From Roseomonas sp. (lineage in GTDB: Bacteria > Pseudomonadota > Alphaproteobacteria > Acetobacterales > Acetobacteraceae), in NCBI GenBank assembly GCA_020249505.1, contig JADCFN010000028.1:1-64000 (forward strand): a stretch of 64,000 bases of DNA, read 5' to 3'. This document shows, one piece after another, positions 51,623 to 60,325 of the stretch. The notes below the pieces were generated by a model. That model did no database searches, was not told the origin of the DNA, and saw nothing but the letters and a program-made list of their open reading frames with translations. Every line of letters starts with the position of its first letter. The first letter of the stretch is position 1. The position numbers and the translations under genes were made by a program.

Positions 51623-54007
51623 ATGACAGTGCAAGGCAAGGGCAAGGCGCGCCATCTGCCGGGCAGCGCGCGGCGGATTGAAGTCCTCCACGCGCTGGAG
51701 AAGAAGCTGCTCTGGCTGTCTTCCTGGATGATCCATCACGCCAACCACATTCGCCCCAATCGGGATGGGTTGAAGGTGGGCGGCCATCAGGCATCCTGCG
51801 CTTCCTGCATTTCCATCCTGACGGCGCTTTACTTCGATATCCTGAAACCCGCCGATCGCGTGGCGGTGAAGCCCCATGCGGGTCCGGTGTTTCACGCCAT
51901 CAATTACCTGCTGGGTCGTCAGCAGCGGGAAAAACTGGAAACGCTGCGGCAATTCCGCGGCATCCAGCCCTATCCCTCCCGCACCAAGGACGGGGCGGAG
52001 GTGGATTTCTCCACCGGCTCGGTTGGGCTTGGCGTCGCACTCGCCTCCTTCGGCTCGCTGGTGCAGGATTATGTGCATCTGCACCGCATGGCGCCCGAGG
52101 GGATTCCTCCTGGCCGGCATGTTGCCGTGGTCGGCGATGCCGAATTGGATGAGGGCAATATCTACGAAGCCCTGTTGGAAGGCTGGAAGCACGATATCCG
52201 CAATGTCTGGTGGGTGGTGGATTACAACCGCCAATCCCTCGATTCCGTTGTGCCGGACAGGCTTTTTGGTCGGATCGAGGGCCTGTTCCGCGATATGGGC
52301 TGGAATGTCGTTACGCTCAAATACGGCCGCAAGCTGGAAGCGGCCTTTGCGCGGCCCGATGGCGATCAATTGCGCCGCTGGATTGATGATTGCCCGAACA
52401 GCCTCTACGCCGCTTTGACCTTCCAAGGCGGCGCCGCCTGGCGCGCCGCCATCCTGGCTGATCTTGGCCGCGTTGCCGGCATTCGCGCCATTATTGACCC
52501 GCTTTCGGATGATGAGCTTTCCGCGCTGATGACCAATCTCGGTGGGCATGACATTGAAACCCTGACCGAGGCCTTCCGCGCCCAGGATGCGGCAGGCGAT
52601 CAGCCCACCTGTTTCATCGCCTATACCATCAAGGGCATGGGCCTGCCCTTCGCCGGGCATAAGGATAATCATGCCGGACTGATGACGAAGGAGCAGATGG
52701 AAGGCTTCCGCGCCGCCATGCGGATTCGTCCTGGCCATGAATGGGATGAATTTGAAGGGCTTGATGTGCCCGAAGAAGAATTGCGCGAATTCCTCGCCGG
52801 CATTGATTTCGCCAAGCCCCTGTCGCCGCAGGGCCGTTCCCTGCAATCCCCCGTGATCCATGTGCCGGAACGTTTCGCCACACCGCGCGTGCCAGCGGGG
52901 CGCAAGCACTCCACCCAGGCGGCCTTTGGCGAAATCCTGGCCGAGATTGGACGCGGGCAGGGGGAAAATGCTGAACTCGCCAAGCGCATCGTCACCACCA
53001 GCCCGGATGTGACGGTTTCCACCAATCTCGGGCCTTGGGTGAATCGGCGCGGGATTTTTGACCGCCACAAGAAGAATGACGTGTTCCGCGATGCCAAGCT
53101 GGCCTCTGCCCAGCGCTGGGGCATGTCGCCCGAAGGCCAGCATGTGGAATTGGGTATTGCGGAACAGAATTTGTTTCTGCTGCTGGCGGGGCTTGGCTTG
53201 GCCGACAGGCTTTATGGTGCGCGGCTTTTGCCGGTGGGCACTGTCTATGATCCCTTCGTCAATCGCGGCCTGGATGCGCTGATTTACGCCTGCTATCAGG
53301 ATGCGCGGTTTCTTTTGGTTTCAACGCCTTCGGGCCTGACATTGGCGCCGGAAGGCGGCCAGCATCAAAGCGTCAATACGCCCCTGATCGGCATGGCGCA
53401 GGATAGGCTTGTGTCTTACGAACCGGCCCATGCGGATGAACTGGCGATCCTGCTCCGACACGCCTTTTTTCACATGCAGCAGCCGAATGGCTCCGCGGTA
53501 TGGCTCCGGCTGTCGACGCGCGGGCTTGAACAGCCTGAACGCAACCTGGACCCGGCGGCGGTGATCGCCGGCGCCCATTGGGTGGTGCCGCCGGCACCGG
53601 GGGCAAGTTTTGCGCTCGCCTATCAAGGCGCCCTGGCACCGGAGGCCCTGGCCGCCTTCAACACCATTCGCGAAGATATCCCCGAAGCCGGGTTGCTCGC
53701 CATTACTAGCCCCGACAAGCTGCATACGGATTGGCTGGCGGCGCGGCGCAAGGCACGGGCGGGCTTTGGTGCGCCAAGCTGGATCGAAACCCTGCTGGCG
53801 CCTTTGGCCCCCGGCGCTGCCCTGGTGACGTTGTTGGATGGCCACCCGGCGGCCCATGCCTGGCTCGGGTCTGTCCGTGGGCAGAAGGTGGTACCGCTTG
53901 GCGTGGACCGCTTCGGCCAGGCCGGCGATATTCCCGACCTCTACCGCGAATACGGGCTGGATGAGGCCGCCATTCTGGACGCCTGCGCCCAGGCTTTGGT
54001 TTCCTGA
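51623..54007 (+). CDS. AceE-like transketolase-family ThDP enzyme (stand-alone E1-type)
   Basis: From ATG 51623, with GGGGGA upstream, the protein has 794 residues. HHANHIRPNRDGLKVGGHQAS and PHAGPVFHAINYLLGR match the homodimeric pyruvate dehydrogenase E1 group. The ThDP/Mg motif is GDAELDEGNIYEA (171-183), with Ala where most have Gly, and the closing Asn is N202. The pyrimidine domain has HVELGIAEQNLFLLLAGLGLA. No E2 or E3 gene is next to it. It may therefore be a stand-alone 2-oxo-acid dehydrogenase component or a transketolase-like enzyme of unknown substrate. Confidence 0.83.
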   Translation: MTVQGKGKARHLPGSARRIEVLHALEKKLLWLSSWMIHHANHIRPNRDGLKVGGHQASCASCISILTALYFDILKPADRVAVKPHAGPVFHAINYLLGRQQREKLETLRQFRGIQPYPSRTKDGAEVDFSTGSVGLGVALASFGSLVQDYVHLHRMAPEGIPPGRHVAVVGDAELDEGNIYEALLEGWKHDIRNVWWVVDYNRQSLDSVVPDRLFGRIEGLFRDMGWNVVTLKYGRKLEAAFARPDGDQLRRWIDDCPNSLYAALTFQGGAAWRAAILADLGRVAGIRAIIDPLSDDELSALMTNLGGHDIETLTEAFRAQDAAGDQPTCFIAYTIKGMGLPFAGHKDNHAGLMTKEQMEGFRAAMRIRPGHEWDEFEGLDVPEEELREFLAGIDFAKPLSPQGRSLQSPVIHVPERFATPRVPAGRKHSTQAAFGEILAEIGRGQGENAELAKRIVTTSPDVTVSTNLGPWVNRRGIFDRHKKNDVFRDAKLASAQRWGMSPEGQHVELGIAEQNLFLLLAGLGLADRLYGARLLPVGTVYDPFVNRGLDALIYACYQDARFLLVSTPSGLTLAPEGGQHQSVNTPLIGMAQDRLVSYEPAHADELAILLRHAFFHMQQPNGSAVWLRLSTRGLEQPERNLDPAAVIAGAHWVVPPAPGASFALAYQGALAPEALAAFNTIREDIPEAGLLAITSPDKLHTDWLAARRKARAGFGAPSWIETLLAPLAPGAALVTLLDGHPAAHAWLGSVRGQKVVPLGVDRFGQAGDIPDLYREYGLDEAAILDACAQALVS

Positions 54008-54091
54008 TACGGTTTTGGCGCATCCTCACTTGGAAAGCGCCAAGGCATAGGCTAAAGCCCTGCCGCCGACCGCGGCGCGGCGCCGTTGGGC

Positions 54092-54176
54092 GCGGGCGTG
54101 GTGGAATCGGTAGACACGCCGGATTTAGGTTCCGGTGGCGCAAGCCTTGGGGGTTCGAGTCCCTTCGCCCGCACCA
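54092..54176 (+). tRNA. tRNA-Leu (UAG anticodon)
   Basis: The acceptor stem GCGGGCG pairs with CGCCCGC, and the CCA end is encoded (54174-54176). The anticodon stem-loop CCGGA-TTTAGGT-TCCGG places TAG at 54126-54128, reading CUA/CUG-type leucine codons. A long variable arm (TGGCGCAAGCCTTGG region) marks a class II tRNA, and GGTTCGAGTCC forms the T arm. It lies between the AceE-like gene and tig. tRNA-Leu genes are frequent phage integration sites; no integrase is present here. Confidence 0.96.
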
Positions 54177-54227
54177 AAGCGCCGCCGGCACTATTTGTTT
54201 CTCTAGCTTGGGATGGACGATCCTCCG

Positions 54228-56078
54228 ATGCAGGTTAATGAGCTCGCGCATGAAGGTTTGAAGCGCGCCTATTCCGTGACGCTTCCGGCGGGCGATATCG
54301 CCTCCAGCCGCGAAAAGCGCCTTTCCGAAATCGCCAAGACGGTTTCGCTGCCGGGCTTCCGCCCGGGCAAGGTGCCGCTTTCCATTGTGCGCCAGCGCTA
54401 TGGCACCGCCGTGATGGGTGAGGTGCTGGAACAATCCGTGGGCGATGCATCGCGCAAGGTTGTGACGGATCGTGGCCTGAAGCCCGCGCTGCAACCGAAG
54501 ATCGAGGTGACGAATTTCGCCGAAGGCACTGATCTTGAATTCCGCATGGAATTGGAAGTGCTGCCGGATGTGCCGATGCCAGAATTTTCCGGCATTGAGT
54601 TGGAACGCCTGCGCGCTGAGCCTTCCGATGAGGAAGTGCAGAAAATCCTGGAAACGCTCGCGACGCGCAATGGTGAATTGACCGATGTGACCGATGCCCG
54701 CCCGGCTACAAAGGGTGAGGTGATGGTGTGCGATTTCGCGGGCTCCGTCGTGCCGGATTTGCTGACCAATGGCCCGGCCCTTGGTGCTGTGCCCGGCATT
54801 CCAGGTCAGGCGCCGCGCGGTTGGGAAATTGGGCTTGCGGGTGGGCTGACGTCCGAGATCGCTGCCATCGGCACGGATGAGGCTCTGCCCTATTTCGATC
54901 TTCGCGTGCGCGGTACGGCGAGTGAAGCCGGCTGGGTCCAGGTATACCTGGAAGGGCCAAAGGGGATCGCCGCAGCACCGGGTGCGACGCAAAGCTTGAT
55001 GGTCAGCACCAGACTGGCTGGCGGCAGCCTGCCGGAAGGCACCCAGGGTAAGCTTGGCTTCAATTTCTACAGCCTGCGCGCCGATGGCGTTGATTTCCTG
55101 GATATGCAGCGCGAAGCCTTTGATGTGACGGCTGGGCGCAGCACGCTTGCCTTTACCTTCCCCAATCAAGCGGAAATCGGCGCCTGCCGGCCCTTCATCT
55201 ATCTGCATGGTATGCCGGCCGGGGCGGCGGTGGAATTCACGCTCCGCGTCGGCCCGTCACGGCTGATCGCGGGGACGGAAGAACCGGCCCTTGCCCCCTT
55301 CGCGGGCGGGTCTGCCACCGATATGCCGATTGAAGTGGGCGGCCCTGGTTTCATTCCAGGCTTTACCGAGCAGATGGAAGGGATGTCGGTTGGCGATAGC
55401 CGCGATATCCAGGTGGTCTTCCCGCTGGATTACGGTTCGGCCGAATTGGCGGGCAAGCGCGCGGTGTTTTCCATCACGGCGAAAAAGCTGCAGCAGCGCG
55501 TGCCGCGCGCCATTGATGATGAATTGGCGAAGACTGTCGGACAGGCCGATCTGGCCGGGCTTCAAGCGCAGGTGAAGGAAGGCTTGCAGCGCGAATATGA
55601 TGGCATGTCGCGCATGCGCTTGAAGCGCGCGCTTCTGGACAAGCTTGCGGATCAGGCAAGCTTCCCCGTGCCGGAAGGCATGGTGGATGGCGAATTCGGC
55701 CAAATCTGGCAGCGCGTGGAAGCGGATTTGAAGGCCGGGCGGCTCGATTCGGATGATGCGGGCAAGGACGAGGCGACGCTGCGCGACGAATATCGCGGCA
55801 TCGCTCAACGCCGCATCCGTCTTGGCCTGCTGCTGTCCGAAATTGGCCGCAGCAACAACATCCAGGTGACACCGGATGAACTCAGCCGTGCGCTTCGCCA
55901 GGAAGCGTCACGCTACCGCGGCCAGGAACAGCAGGTGATCGACTTCTTCCGCAAGAATCCGGAAGCGATGGAAAACCTCCGCGCCCCAATTTTCGAGGAA
56001 AAGGTTGTCGATTTCATCCTGGAACTCGCCAAGGTGGCCGAGCGTCAGGTGAAGCCTGAGGAATTGTCGGAAGCCTGA
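54228..56078 (+). CDS. tig: Trigger factor with a large insertion in the PPIase domain
   Basis: Trigger factor is the ribosome-bound chaperone. The N-terminal domain is normal, with the signature GFRPGKVP at residues 43-50, exactly the E. coli positions. The C-terminal arms are also normal. The FKBP-type PPIase domain starts with GEVMVCDFAGSVVPD (164-177) and resumes at FAGGSATDMPIEVGGPGFIPGF (358 onward). About 179 residues (178-356) separate these halves. Without them the protein would be about 437 residues, the usual size. ATG 54228 (MQVNELAHEGLKR) is the standard start; ATG 54213 is possible. It is followed by a terminator. Confidence 0.95.
   Translation: MQVNELAHEGLKRAYSVTLPAGDIASSREKRLSEIAKTVSLPGFRPGKVPLSIVRQRYGTAVMGEVLEQSVGDASRKVVTDRGLKPALQPKIEVTNFAEGTDLEFRMELEVLPDVPMPEFSGIELERLRAEPSDEEVQKILETLATRNGELTDVTDARPATKGEVMVCDFAGSVVPDLLTNGPALGAVPGIPGQAPRGWEIGLAGGLTSEIAAIGTDEALPYFDLRVRGTASEAGWVQVYLEGPKGIAAAPGATQSLMVSTRLAGGSLPEGTQGKLGFNFYSLRADGVDFLDMQREAFDVTAGRSTLAFTFPNQAEIGACRPFIYLHGMPAGAAVEFTLRVGPSRLIAGTEEPALAPFAGGSATDMPIEVGGPGFIPGFTEQMEGMSVGDSRDIQVVFPLDYGSAELAGKRAVFSITAKKLQQRVPRAIDDELAKTVGQADLAGLQAQVKEGLQREYDGMSRMRLKRALLDKLADQASFPVPEGMVDGEFGQIWQRVEADLKAGRLDSDDAGKDEATLRDEYRGIAQRRIRLGLLLSEIGRSNNIQVTPDELSRALRQEASRYRGQEQQVIDFFRKNPEAMENLRAPIFEEKVVDFILELAKVAERQVKPEELSEA
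54759..55295 (+). other. Inserted domain within trigger factor (about 179 residues)
   Basis: This in-frame block splits the FKBP domain in the loop after its first strands. It begins with a Gly/Pro/Ala-rich linker. Then come PRGWEIGLAGGLTSEI, PYFDLRVRGTA, WVQVYLEG and FTLRVGPSRL, alternating strand-like segments with Trp and aromatic residues. The order resembles jelly-roll carbohydrate-binding-like modules that I recall from alphaproteobacterial phage-tail and surface proteins. GC content is like that of the rest of the gene. Family membership is recalled, not searched. Confidence 0.6.
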
Positions 56079-56102
56079 CCCGGCGAGCGGTTAGGATTTA
56101 CG

Positions 56103-56132
56103 AGGGCAGGGGGGAACCTCTGCCCTTTTTTT
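56103..56132 (+). terminator. Rho-independent terminator after tig
   Basis: AGGGCAGGGG (56103-56112) pairs with CCTCTGCCCT with one mismatch across a GGAA loop, followed by a run of seven T's. It begins 25 bases after the tig stop. Confidence 0.88.
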
Positions 56133-56265
56133 GTTCAGATGGCGCGCCGCCGATTTTTGTCGGGAAATGAAGGGGGTGGCTTGCAGGAAGGCTACGCCTC
56201 GCATAGGAAGGAGACCAAAGAGGCTTGGCGGTATTCGCCGCTACAAGAAGGGGGGCGCGGTTCGG

Positions 56266-57042
56266 GTGTCTGACACCATCCTTGAAACGGAAGGGCTTAC
56301 GAAGGAATTCCGGGGCTTCGTCGCAGTCAGCGACGTGAACCTGAATGTCCGCCGCGGCACCATCCATGGCTTGATCGGCCCGAACGGCGCCGGCAAGACC
56401 ACTTGCTTCAATATGCTGACGAAATTCCTGCCGCCAACCCGCGGTGCCATCCGCTATGATGGTCGCGACATCACGGGGATGAAGGCGGCCGAGGTGGCCC
56501 GCCTTGGCCTGGTGCGGAGCTTCCAGATCTCCGCCGTGTTTCCGCATCTGACCGTACTTGAAAATGTGCGCGTGGCCTTGCAGCGCGCCCGTGGCGGTTC
56601 CTTCGATTTCTGGCGTTCCGATTCGGTGCTGCGCAAATTCGATGCGCGCGCTGAGGAATTGCTGGCCGATGTGGGCCTGACGGAATGGATGCACCTGACC
56701 GCCGGTGAATTGCCCTATGGCCGCAAGCGCGCGCTTGAAATCGCAACCACACTCGCGCTTGATCCGGTGATGATGCTGTTGGATGAACCGACAGCCGGCA
56801 TGGCGCATGATGATGTGGACCGCGTGGTGGCGCTGGTGAAGCGAGTTTCCGTTGGTCGCACCATTCTGCTGGTGGAACATAACCTGCGTGTTGTGCAAGG
56901 GCTTTGCGATACCATCACCGTGCTCGCGCGCGGCAGCGTGCTGGCGGAAGGCGATTACGCGGCGGTGTCGCGCAACCCGGATGTGATTGCGGCTTATCTT
57001 GGCACGGATGCATCAACCGAAGCGGAGCCGGCCCATGGCTGA
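56266..57042 (+). CDS. livG: Branched-chain amino-acid-type ABC transporter ATP-binding protein LivG
   Basis: The 258-residue ATPase has Walker A GPNGAGKTT (38-46) and Walker B in MMLLDEPTAGMA. The signature region reads LPYGRKRALEIA, the usual LivG variant of LSGGQ. GTG 56266 produces SDTILETEGLTKEFRGFVAV, the normal N-terminus; upstream in-frame starts add about 45 unlikely basic residues. It energises uptake through LivH/LivM. It overlaps livF by eight bases and opens the seven-gene operon. Confidence 0.93.
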   Translation: MSDTILETEGLTKEFRGFVAVSDVNLNVRRGTIHGLIGPNGAGKTTCFNMLTKFLPPTRGAIRYDGRDITGMKAAEVARLGLVRSFQISAVFPHLTVLENVRVALQRARGGSFDFWRSDSVLRKFDARAEELLADVGLTEWMHLTAGELPYGRKRALEIATTLALDPVMMLLDEPTAGMAHDDVDRVVALVKRVSVGRTILLVEHNLRVVQGLCDTITVLARGSVLAEGDYAAVSRNPDVIAAYLGTDASTEAEPAHG

Positions 57043-57778
57043 TGTGATGACCGCCCCCGCTGGCACCAAGCCCAGCACCGGTGCGCTGATGGAAATTCGC
57101 GGGCTTGAGGCCTGGTATGGCGAAAGCCATGTCCTGCACGGCGTGGATATTGATATTCGCGAAGGCGAAGTTGTGACGCTGCTTGGCCGCAATGGCGCGG
57201 GCAAGACCTCCACGCTCCGGTCCGTGATGGGCCTGGTGCCGCGCCGCAGTGGTTCCATCAAGTATGAGGGCAAGGAATTCGTCAATGCGCGTTCGGATGT
57301 GATTGCGCGCGCCGGCATTGCCTATTGCCCTGAGGAGCGGGGGATTTTCGCGTCGCTCGACGTGACCGAAAACCTGATGCTGCCGCCCATGGTGCGCCCC
57401 GGTGGGCTGCCCTTGGATGAAATCTACACGCTATTCCCGAATTTGAAGGAAAGGGCGCGCAGCCAAGGCACCAAGCTTTCGGGCGGTGAACAGCAAATGC
57501 TGGCCATTGCGCGGATCCTGCGCACCGGGGCGCGGCTGCTGCTGCTGGATGAGCCTTCAGAAGGCCTGGCGCCGGTGATTGTGCAGCAGATCGGGCGCAC
57601 CATCCGCGAATTGAAGAAGCGCGGCTTTACGGTTTTGCTGGTCGAGCAGAATTTCCGCTTCGCGCAAACAGTCGCGGATCGGCACTATGTCATGGAACAT
57701 GGCCGTGTGGTGGATATGGTCGCCAATGAAGACCTGAATGCATCACTCGACCGGTTGCATGAATATCTTGGCGTTTAA
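57035..57778 (+). CDS. livF: Branched-chain amino-acid-type ABC transporter ATP-binding protein LivF
   Basis: The 247-residue ATPase has Walker A GRNGAGKT (51-58), signature LSGGEQQMLAIAR, Walker B LLLLDEPSEGLAP, and the typical PEERGIFASLDVTENL loop. ATG 57035 lies within the end of livG, so the two are translationally coupled. LivF pairs with LivG to drive LivHM. The first substrate-binding gene follows 51 bases later. Confidence 0.94.
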   Translation: MADVMTAPAGTKPSTGALMEIRGLEAWYGESHVLHGVDIDIREGEVVTLLGRNGAGKTSTLRSVMGLVPRRSGSIKYEGKEFVNARSDVIARAGIAYCPEERGIFASLDVTENLMLPPMVRPGGLPLDEIYTLFPNLKERARSQGTKLSGGEQQMLAIARILRTGARLLLLDEPSEGLAPVIVQQIGRTIRELKKRGFTVLLVEQNFRFAQTVADRHYVMEHGRVVDMVANEDLNASLDRLHEYLGV

Positions 57779-57829
57779 CAGGGCCGTTTTCCAAGCCGGG
57801 GCGGCTAAGCAAAAAAGGGGAAACCAAAA

Positions 57830-59065
57830 ATGAGCCTTTCACGTCGGGACATTTTGGCCGGTTCAGCCGGCGCCGCAGCCTTTGGCGCACTGCCCTATCG
57901 CAGCGCCAAGGCCCAGGCTGCGAATACCATCCGCATCGGCGTCTTGAATGACATGTCGGGCATGTATCGCGACATTTCGGGCATGAGCTCGGTGGTGTGC
58001 GCGCGCGCCGCGGTGCAGGAATTTGCAGGCCGCGGCTTCAATGTTGAAGTGCTGTCGGCGGACCATCAGAACCGCGCCGATGTTGGCGTGAATATCGCGC
58101 GCCAGTGGATTGATCGCGAAGGGGTGGATGTGCTGCTGGATGTGACCACATCCTCGGTGGCGCTCGCGGTTTCCGATATCTGCCGCGAAAAGAACAAGGT
58201 GCATATCAATTGCAGTGCGGCGACCAGCGACCTGACGGGCGCGCGTTGCAATGCCAATACCGTGCATTGGACTTATGACACCTGGATGTGCGCCAAATCC
58301 ACCGGTGGGGCGATGGTGCGCGCCGGCGGCGATAGCTGGTTCTTCATCACGGCGGATTACGCTTTCGGCCATGCGCTGGAACGCGACACCAGCAACTTCA
58401 TCCGTGCCGCTGGCGGACGGGTGCTGGGCCAAGTGCGCACGCCCTTTCCGGGCACGACCGATTTCTCTTCCTTCCTTGTGCAGGCGCAAGCCTCTCGCGC
58501 CAAGGTGATCGGGCTTGCCAATGCGGGCGCGGATACCACCAATTGCGTCAAGCAGGCCGCCGAATTTGGCATTACGCGCCGCGGCATCAAGATCGCTTCC
58601 TTGCTCATGTTCATCAATGATGTGCATGGGCTTGGTCTGCAAACGGCGCAGGGGCTGGTGCTGACCGAAACCTTCTACTGGGATTTGAATGACGCAACGC
58701 GGCGCTTCACCAATCGGGTGCGCTCCGCCATGGCGCCGAATATGCCGGCCATGACCCATGCTGGCACCTATGCCGGTGCGCTGCATTACCTGAAGACGGT
58801 GGCCGATATGGGCGTGGCAGCGGCCAAGGCCGATGGCGCGGCGGCGGTTGCGCGCATGAAGGCGATACCGACGGAAGATGATTGCTTCGGCAAGGGCACT
58901 ATCCGCGCCGATGGCCGGAAGCTTCACCCCGCCTATTTGTTTGAAGTCAAGACGCCGGCGGAAAGCCGTGGGCCTTGGGATTACTATAAGCTGCTGCAAA
59001 CCACACCTGGCGAGGAAGCTTTCCGTCCACTCGCTGAGGGCGCTTGCCCGCTCGTGCGTAGCTGA
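57830..59065 (+). CDS. Branched-chain-type ABC transporter substrate-binding protein, paralogue 1
   Basis: The 411-residue periplasmic binding protein (type 1 fold) has a Tat-like signal (SLSRRDILAGSAGAAAFGA). The mature N-terminus is NTIRIGVLNDMSGMYRDISG, with the ADHQNRADVGVNIARQW and FFITADYAFGHALERDT blocks. It is very similar to the next two genes. The WDLNDATRRF segment and DYYKLLQTTPGEEAF end are shared by all three. It delivers a ligand, perhaps a small amide, urea-like or aromatic compound rather than leucine, to LivHM. Confidence 0.92.
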   Translation: MSLSRRDILAGSAGAAAFGALPYRSAKAQAANTIRIGVLNDMSGMYRDISGMSSVVCARAAVQEFAGRGFNVEVLSADHQNRADVGVNIARQWIDREGVDVLLDVTTSSVALAVSDICREKNKVHINCSAATSDLTGARCNANTVHWTYDTWMCAKSTGGAMVRAGGDSWFFITADYAFGHALERDTSNFIRAAGGRVLGQVRTPFPGTTDFSSFLVQAQASRAKVIGLANAGADTTNCVKQAAEFGITRRGIKIASLLMFINDVHGLGLQTAQGLVLTETFYWDLNDATRRFTNRVRSAMAPNMPAMTHAGTYAGALHYLKTVADMGVAAAKADGAAAVARMKAIPTEDDCFGKGTIRADGRKLHPAYLFEVKTPAESRGPWDYYKLLQTTPGEEAFRPLAEGACPLVRS

Positions 59066-59098
59066 TCCAACAACATCATCGCTTGAGGGAGATAAAAA

Positions 59099-60325
59099 AT
59101 GCAGGTTTCACGTCGTAGTGTTTTAGCCGGAGCGGCCGCCACCGGCGCCCTGCCGCTCTCCCTTGCGCGCGCGCAGGCGGCGAATACCGTTCGTATCGGT
59201 GTCATGACCGATATGTCGGGCATGTATCGTGACAATACCGGCCCGACTTCGGTGGCCGCTGCGCGTGAAGCCGCGTCGGAATTCGGCGCGAGCCACGGCT
59301 TCCGTGTGGAAATCATCGAAGCCGATCACCAGAACCGCCCGGATGTTGGCGTCAATCTGGCGCGGCAATGGTATGATCAGGGCGTGGACCTGATCATTGA
59401 TGTGCCGACCTCCTCCGTGGGGTTGGCCGTTTCCAATGTCGCGCGTGAAAAGAACAAGGCCTATATCAATGTCGGTTCAGCCACCGCTGACCTGACGGGC
59501 GCGCAATGCAGCCCGAATACCATTCACTGGGCCTATGATACCTTCATGCTGGCACGTTCCACCGGCGGGGCGACGGTGCGCGCGGGTGGCGATACCTGGT
59601 TCTTCATCACCGCCGATTACGCCTTTGGCCACGCGCTGGAACGCGATACTACTAACTTTGTGCGTGCGGCTGGCGGGCGTATCCTTGGTCAGGTGCGCAC
59701 TCCCTTCCCGGGCACGACGGATTTCTCCTCCTTCCTGGTGCAGGCTCAGGCGTCGCGCGCCAAGGTGATTGGCCTCGCCAATGCTGGCGCGGATACGCAG
59801 AATTGCGTGAAGCAGGCGGCGGAATTCGGGCTCACGCGGCGCGGCATCAAGCTTGCTTCGCTGCTGCTTTTTGTGAATGACGTGCATGGCCTTGGGCTGC
59901 AAACGGCGCAGGGGCTGGTTTGCACCGAAAGCTTCTATTGGGATCTGAACGACAAGACCCGCGCCTGGACCGAGCGTATGCTGCGCCGCGTGCCGACCAA
60001 TTACCCGAACATGATCCATGCCGGCTGCTATTCCGGCACGCTGCACTTCCTAAAGACCGTGGCGGCGATGGGCGTGCCGGCCGCCAAGGCCTCTGGCCTT
60101 GACCTGGTGAACCGGATGAAGGCGCAGCCTTCGGAGGATGATCTTTACGGCAGGGCGGTCATCCGTCCGGATGGCCGGCGCTTGATCCCCTCCTACCTGT
60201 TTGAGGTGAAGACGCCCGCCGAAAGCCGTAGGCCGTGGGATTACTACAAGCTGTTGCAAACCACCCCGGCCGAGGAAGCCTTCCGCCCGATCGGTGAAGG
60301 TGGCTGCGCGCTCGTGCGTTCGTGA
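59099..60325 (+). CDS. Branched-chain-type ABC transporter substrate-binding protein, paralogue 2
   Basis: The 408-residue protein has a Tat-like signal (QVSRRSVLAGAAATGALPL) and the same block order as its neighbours: NTVRIGVMTDMSGMYRD, EADHQNRPDVGVNLARQW, DYAFGHALERDTTNFVRAAGG. Differences cluster in the ligand region (for example VPTSSVGLAVSNVAREKNKAY and the WAYDTFMLARSTGG segment), so it may bind a related but distinct compound. It lies 33 bases after paralogue 1, clearly in one operon. Confidence 0.92.
   Translation: MQVSRRSVLAGAAATGALPLSLARAQAANTVRIGVMTDMSGMYRDNTGPTSVAAAREAASEFGASHGFRVEIIEADHQNRPDVGVNLARQWYDQGVDLIIDVPTSSVGLAVSNVAREKNKAYINVGSATADLTGAQCSPNTIHWAYDTFMLARSTGGATVRAGGDTWFFITADYAFGHALERDTTNFVRAAGGRILGQVRTPFPGTTDFSSFLVQAQASRAKVIGLANAGADTQNCVKQAAEFGLTRRGIKLASLLLFVNDVHGLGLQTAQGLVCTESFYWDLNDKTRAWTERMLRRVPTNYPNMIHAGCYSGTLHFLKTVAAMGVPAAKASGLDLVNRMKAQPSEDDLYGRAVIRPDGRRLIPSYLFEVKTPAESRRPWDYYKLLQTTPAEEAFRPIGEGGCALVRS

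Follow-up and report, generated by a model that had tools for sequence, protein, structure and literature searches.

The tig gene in the stretch of DNA analysed here (64,000 nucleotides of Roseomonas sp., contig JADCFN010000028.1; the window) codes for an intact trigger factor in which the FKBP (peptidyl-prolyl isomerase, PPIase) domain is interrupted by about 182 additional amino acids. Trigger factor is among the most constant bacterial proteins. Profile comparisons indicate homology between the insert and a domain found in the tail and baseplate proteins of phages. The relevant features are as follows.

54092..54176, + strand: tRNA-Leu upstream of tig (ARAGORN), an ancestral neighbour outside the insertion
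54228..56078, + strand: tig, trigger factor with insert, 616 amino acids from the conserved MQV start (Pfam, NCBIfam)
54228..54659, + strand: Trigger_N ribosome-binding domain (Pfam), with GFRPGK at 54354-54371
54660..54749, + strand: FKBP/PPIase domain, first part (alignment to 1w26), with Phe175 (E. coli Phe168) at 54735-54737
54750..55295, + strand: inserted domain, about 182 amino acids, homolog of a phage tail/baseplate domain (alignment, profiles), with a putative jelly-roll fold
55296..55478, + strand: FKBP/PPIase domain, second part (Pfam FKBP_C 363-422; alignment)
55551..56024, + strand: Trigger_C, substrate-binding arms (Pfam)

The open reading frame (ORF) at 54213-56078 on the forward strand encodes 621 amino acids from its first ATG. 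The start conserved among relatives is the ATG at 54228 (MQV...), to which the ATG at 54213 adds 5 amino acids; the stop is at 56078. In the numbering of the 621-residue ORF, Pfam placed Trigger_N at 6-149, Trigger_C at 447-604 and FKBP_C, in its second part only, at 363-422. All three exceeded the Pfam cut-offs, and the NCBIfam trigger factor family TIGR00115 scored 375 bits against a cut-off of 180. Residues 6-179 and 362-618 aligned with residues 1-172 and 176-427 of E. coli trigger factor (1w26), so that residues 180-361 (54750-55295) replace three residues in E. coli. The original prediction, made from the letters of the window, had seen a foreign domain at 54759-55295 (residues 178-356 from MQV) inside an otherwise ordinary trigger factor; this is supported, and its limits were right to within a few residues.

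The insert lies between Phe168 and Phe177 in the E. coli count, after position 172 and before position 176. These two residues line the PPIase pocket, for which the available text of PMC6166725 names Phe168, Phe177, Ile195, Phe198, Phe217, Tyr221 and Phe233. Every one of them is present in the window trigger factor, where the second part of the FKBP domain supplies Phe363 (E. coli Phe177), Ile381, Pro382, Phe384, Phe403, Pro404, Tyr407 and Phe419. The position of E. coli His222 is occupied by Gly, as it is in 19 of 23 trigger factors lacking the insert. Among main trigger factors with the insert, the pocket residues were kept in 24/24, except Phe177 (23/24), and the ribosome-binding signature GFRPGK was found in all 24, as in all 23 insert-less ones. 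Because signature and pocket are kept, the main insert-bearing protein is taken to be a working trigger factor. The GC content at third codon positions (GC3) was 0.70 in the insert and 0.69 and 0.72 in the flanks; overall GC was 0.65, somewhat above the 0.60 of the flanks.

The insert-bearing trigger factor is not a one-off: it is the main trigger factor in at least 7 genera of the family sample and occurs in second copies as well. The window's genus, Neoroseomonas, was sampled with 35 genomes including the window's own, which had a single tig match. All 33 genomes with a tig match spanning the region carried the insert, the other two being G009 (no tig match) and G026 (first 103 residues only). 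A tig frame with the insert was also found in 29 named contigs, isolates included (Neoroseomonas soli, eburnea, oryzicola, marina, terrae, alba and lacus among them), many of which seem to be the same assemblies as in the genus sample and are not an independent count. Beyond the genus, a family sample of 299 genomes gave 276 tig matches, unbroken across the insert in at least 20 genomes, from 7 genera.

Outside the family, the insert was found in none of 21 trigger factors with a match from other families of the class (24 genomes), where the two matching pieces lay at most about 130 bases apart, and in none of 68 others with a match in a phylum sample of 70 genomes, where the pieces lay within about 100 bases. 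A profile of the domain matched 1 of 288 class genomes besides the window's own, in an open frame of 402 residues. No insert-bearing trigger factor turned up in viral contigs, which were searched for exact matches to short patterns. The protein matched 33 phage records and 43 plasmid records, and all those examined (20 and 15 rows, respectively) were too short for the insert. The PHROGs family phrog_26774, of unassigned function, matched the insert-bearing trigger factor L086 (E 1.3e-75) and resembles a trigger factor family lacking that name in PHROGs. In a metagenome-assembled genome (G013), the insert-bearing tig (L013/L216) had an in-frame TAG near its start, which may be an error.

Since all 33 informative genomes of the genus carry the insert at this site, as do the named contigs, it is neither a chance product nor an assembly chimera. 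The possibility of disordered, low-complexity filler is countered by the lack of tandem repeats, by motif-level conservation with phage domains and by purifying selection. We saw by eye no terminal HN plus Cys/Ser/Thr at the borders, which we take to be the splice-junction motif of inteins, and no pair of repeats brackets the insert as in a mobile element with border repeats. At the limits applied, Pfam, NCBIfam, PHROGs and the PDB sequences contained nothing that matched the insert alone. PDB sequences gave only repeat-inflated matches to designed Pizza proteins and weak ones to 5e7t_B (E 0.66 and 0.2), which we did not use. The carbohydrate-binding family CBM_4_9 (PF02018) had no Pfam match in the window protein, and none of 54 members was matched at E 0.1. 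One carrier of the domain (L052) reached 15.6 bits against the CBM_4_9 cut-off of 25.9, and hhalign comparisons gave 2.4% and 0.2%, or 38% (E 3e-4, without a control) for the profile of trigger factor inserts only.

Relatives of the insert were found in phage-type proteins, as the original prediction had guessed from the flavour of the sequence. A search of the family sample with the insert gave matches in 35 of the 299 genomes, trigger factors among them. Ten carriers were scanned with Pfam: carriers other than trigger factors included two Phage_Mu_Gp48 proteins (E 1.5e-23 and 3.1e-26), one GP46 protein (E 1.7e-29) and four without any Pfam family. Tail or baseplate families of PHROGs were matched by 7 of 8 carriers from bacterial genomes, counted as prophage genes by protein family alone, and by 8 of 10 carriers from viral contigs and Azospirillum phage Cd. 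The domain is present in gp49 of phage Cd (E 2e-28 against a copy from a bacterial genome, 2e-3 against the insert of the window), and IMG/VR contained 45 loci with it.

A profile of phage and prophage domains matched 30 of 31 trigger factor inserts at E 3.2e-10 or better (window, 2.6e-28; best of 310 shuffled sequences, 2.6), over the full length of the domain. A profile built from viral contigs and phage Cd only matched 30 of 31 at 4e-9 or better (window, 1.4e-26). The set of 31 omits near-copies and additional members of the same genus, as well as L089, which lacks a C-terminal match. When a profile of trigger factor inserts was compared with one of phage domains, the match was 99.9% (E 1.9e-34), with column-shuffled controls at or below 0.3%. 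Both groups share an N-terminal pattern, N....GA..G.PG..P..W, and a C-terminal TLRIG. The phage carriers (GP46, Phage_Mu_Gp48, phage Cd gp49, phrog_5939) have the domain at full length, as in the window; they differ in being structural proteins of the particle, in which the domain often follows a RAS...PR stretch and precedes TRAAD, both absent from the trigger factor. The window's host gene is tig, not a gene for a virion protein.

Some phage-type proteins are themselves interrupted by the domain. Mu-like Gp48-type proteins in G033 and G024, two genomes of the window's genus, show this (L031 and L032 assigned by Pfam, L033 and L034 by eye); L031, L033 and L034 belong to one genome and have differing versions of the domain. 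In viral contigs L154 and L155 the domain splits, by eye, a stretch common in these tail proteins, FTRASTATYFD...PRWDYDP.

In a tree of 31 trigger factor inserts and 45 phage domains, a single branch separated the two groups (96/99, bootstrap not settled). A quick tree of 34 inserts and 63 phage domains, omitting L233 and L245 as duplicates, gave the same division (SH-like approximate likelihood ratio test, 97). Both trees are unrooted, and the single separating branch suggests a single transfer.

We propose that a phage tail domain was captured in frame, probably once, in an ancestor within the Acetobacteraceae, into the FKBP loop between Phe168 and Phe177, and that it would then have been inherited, lost or exchanged among trigger factors. 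Transfer from phage to host is the likely direction. To judge from the residues kept, the chaperone would still dock on the ribosome and isomerise prolines. By analogy with SlyD, the likeliest role of the extra domain, on the rim of the pocket, is that of an accessory lobe, which may bind certain clients or a ligand. Taken as a whole, this mechanism is our best guess, and we rate it slightly below an even chance.

Several observations weigh against this proposal. One insert (L085) matched no phage profile by itself. The insert is patchy in the family, in the numbers given above, and in genus g41 it was present in 3 of 17 genomes and absent from 14. It also changes faster than its host protein: in 18 of 18 pairs of main trigger factors it was less alike than either flank. 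The ratio of nonsynonymous to synonymous substitution rates (dN/dS; Nei-Gojobori, rough at such divergence) was 0.21-0.44 in the insert and 0.06-0.23 in the flanks among the rest of the genus (6 pairs), and 0.94-1.35 in the insert in g41 (3 pairs), as expected if the insert matters less there. Across genera, the insert was not the best-kept part of the second copies, whose alignment is rough. A trigger factor tree built without the insert columns (54 rows) required at least 6 changes for the insert, and the trees do not distinguish a single ancient gain followed by repeated losses from passage of the insert from one trigger factor to another. Midpoint rooting of the domain tree puts the root among the trigger factors and nests the phage domains within them. 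Taken literally, this favours transfer from trigger factor to phage, and it gives no help to the opposite direction.

The lower conservation of the insert, its dN/dS in g41 and its patchy presence would suit a passenger, that is, a loop tolerating an accidentally captured domain that drifts fast, is lost frequently and is kept folded only to spare the chaperone. The sharp borders of the divergence would suit it too. Between L083 and L084 the flanks were 97% and 96% identical and the insert 37%; sliding windows, run for two pairs, gave for this one 90-100% in the flanks and mostly 26-36% in the insert. We nevertheless consider a passenger unlikely. The insert is universal among informative genomes of the window's genus, and in the window's clade (5 pairs) dN/dS was 0.07-0.14 in the insert and 0.05-0.11 in the flanks. 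At these values, purifying selection holds the insert in the window's clade. In g41 the insert exceeded the flanks 2.4- to 3.3-fold in synonymous divergence, a difference that may reflect exchange with diverged copies.

Traces at the insertion site could bear on past losses. Spacing at the site was longer (8-19) in 16 of 23 insert-less trigger factors and 6 in the other seven, namely three from g40, two basal members of the family and two from other families. The longer form was shared by all 14 of the g41 genomes that lack the insert. The longer spacing may be a scar of past losses or may mark an insertion-prone loop; the scar reading is at odds with g40, where the short form occurs alongside a single member that has the insert.

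Second copies also speak against a passenger. A further trigger factor-like protein with the insert occurs in five genomes of the window's genus and in genomes of g53, g72 and g120 (L035-L039, L088-L090, L092, L244, L246 and L252, with altered pockets). Although the alignment of these copies is rough, Phe168, Ile195 and Tyr221 were replaced in all nine examined, whereas six retain Phe177. In the window's genus, the five copies have GFRxG instead of GFRPGK; the signature is lost in the other four. All nine nonetheless retain the insert, and in g120 it was the best-conserved part in 6 of 6 pairs. This retention despite altered pockets suggests a binding role of the domain's own. None of eight second copies examined lay beside tRNA-Leu. 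In the window's genus, L222 and L036 have one neighbourhood in common and L223 and L225 a second; in g120, L227 and L229 share one neighbouring gene. No second-copy neighbourhood common to different genera was found, with gene calls by GC3, which are rough.

The domain might instead keep an ancestral job and bind a surface polysaccharide or its cytoplasmic precursor, thereby bringing the chaperone to the glycan or to glycan-assembling proteins. The location of its phage relatives in tail and baseplate proteins favours such a role, as does a remote likeness to the head spike fibre family of the gene transfer agent RcGTA. The phage-domain profile matched this family over the whole domain length (hhalign, 94.9%, E 4.5e-8; none of 30 shuffled controls above 1.5%); an earlier, small profile of six sequences had given 11% (E 7e-4; 20 controls at or below 1.1%). 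The family (Rcc01080) was identified with 6tb9 by sequence, and a neighbouring domain in phage Cd gp49 is a member. The RcGTA fibre binds capsule-bearing cells, according to the available part of PMC10218006, and in its structure residues 2-10 alone are resolved (PMC7296036, available part). The relation is indirect, however: trigger factor inserts alone gave 0.23% with this family, no better than controls (up to 0.43%). Trigger factor is cytosolic, and CBM_4_9 was not matched above its cut-off. We know of no member of the insert's domain for which glycan binding is established. Glycan binding appears rather improbable.

A less probable reading starts from the second copies. Having lost pocket residues in 9/9 cases and the signature in four of nine while keeping the domain, they might represent a chaperone that, after a viral tail domain was domesticated in it, decayed in some lineages into a carrier of that domain, a cytosolic binder with a possible anti-phage role. 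The turnover of the insert between nearly identical flanks (96-97% against 37%) would then be the trace of an arms race; we give the reading as a whole a small chance.

It is still less probable that the cytosolic copy of the domain acts as a decoy, vying for partners or chaperones with the tail protein of a phage that infects the cell, with turnover reflecting an arms race. Phage-type carriers of the domain do occur in the same family and genus, the divergence in g41 is confined to the insert, and the altered second copies keep the domain. On the other side stand the purifying selection in the window's clade and the one branch holding all trigger factor inserts tested, which gives no sign of repeated uptake from phages.

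An origin of the domain in trigger factors, with later passage to phages, is very improbable: the midpoint root raises its odds marginally and lowers slightly our confidence in phage-to-host transfer, but we discount that root because the long, fast branches of the trigger factor inserts pull it towards them, the phage carriers are varied and extend beyond the family, and trigger factors elsewhere (21/21 in other class families, 68/68 in the phylum sample) lack the insert.

The window's protein agrees with bacterial trigger factor (TIGR00115) in Trigger_N, FKBP and Trigger_C, in GFRPGK, in the pocket residues and in the ancestral tRNA-Leu neighbour. It differs in the extra FKBP residues, which are absent from the two solved trigger factors aligned and from those sampled outside the family. 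The insert is not of the SlyD type, which occupies the flap (80s loop): it lies in another loop, and we placed the flap in the FKBP fold partly from an FKBP alignment that we assume to hold. The analogy with SlyD in the original prediction is thus loose. In SlyD and SlpA the chaperone domain is in the flap and has about 65 residues, whereas the window's insert of about 182 precedes Phe177 and has phage relatives; chaperone domains grafted at the flap into FKBP12 raised folding activity (PMC11013033, available text). Evolved Dit proteins, in which carbohydrate-binding modules are inserted in a loop, likewise set beta-rich modules in loops of unrelated scaffolds, although in their case a phage baseplate protein serves as scaffold, and in the window a ribosome-bound host chaperone (PMC9692632, available text). 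The trigger factor of chloroplasts departs from its bacterial counterparts in PPIase-domain loops, and the available text of PMC9527764 mentions no added domain. Our searches of openly licensed PubMed Central (PMC) papers listed none that describes a domain inserted into trigger factor.

The tRNA-Leu upstream of tig, which the original prediction had mentioned as a common phage target while calling any part in the insertion speculation, has no visible part in it: of the trigger factors without the insert that were examined, 13 of 14 within the family and 2 of 2 from other families have tRNA-Leu beside tig. Because trigger factors without the insert have the same neighbourhood, it is ancestral, and we rejected it as an attachment site. 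No obvious phage gene was seen, by eye, among the neighbouring ORFs from 53000 to 60000. Further downstream, the adjacent genes at 57830-59065 and 59099-60325 look alike by eye and resemble ABC transporter substrate-binding proteins, an apparent tandem duplication downstream of two ABC ATPase-like genes.

A large insert related to phage tails, next to an active site and found throughout a genus, amounts to a natural domain-graft experiment. It makes it testable whether an added binding module re-aims the PPIase head, as the engineered grafts of SlyD domains into FKBP12 suggest, and g41 strains with, without and with different inserts are ready-made controls. The insert-bearing trigger factor would also exemplify a core protein of the cytosol in which a host has captured a domain from phage tails.
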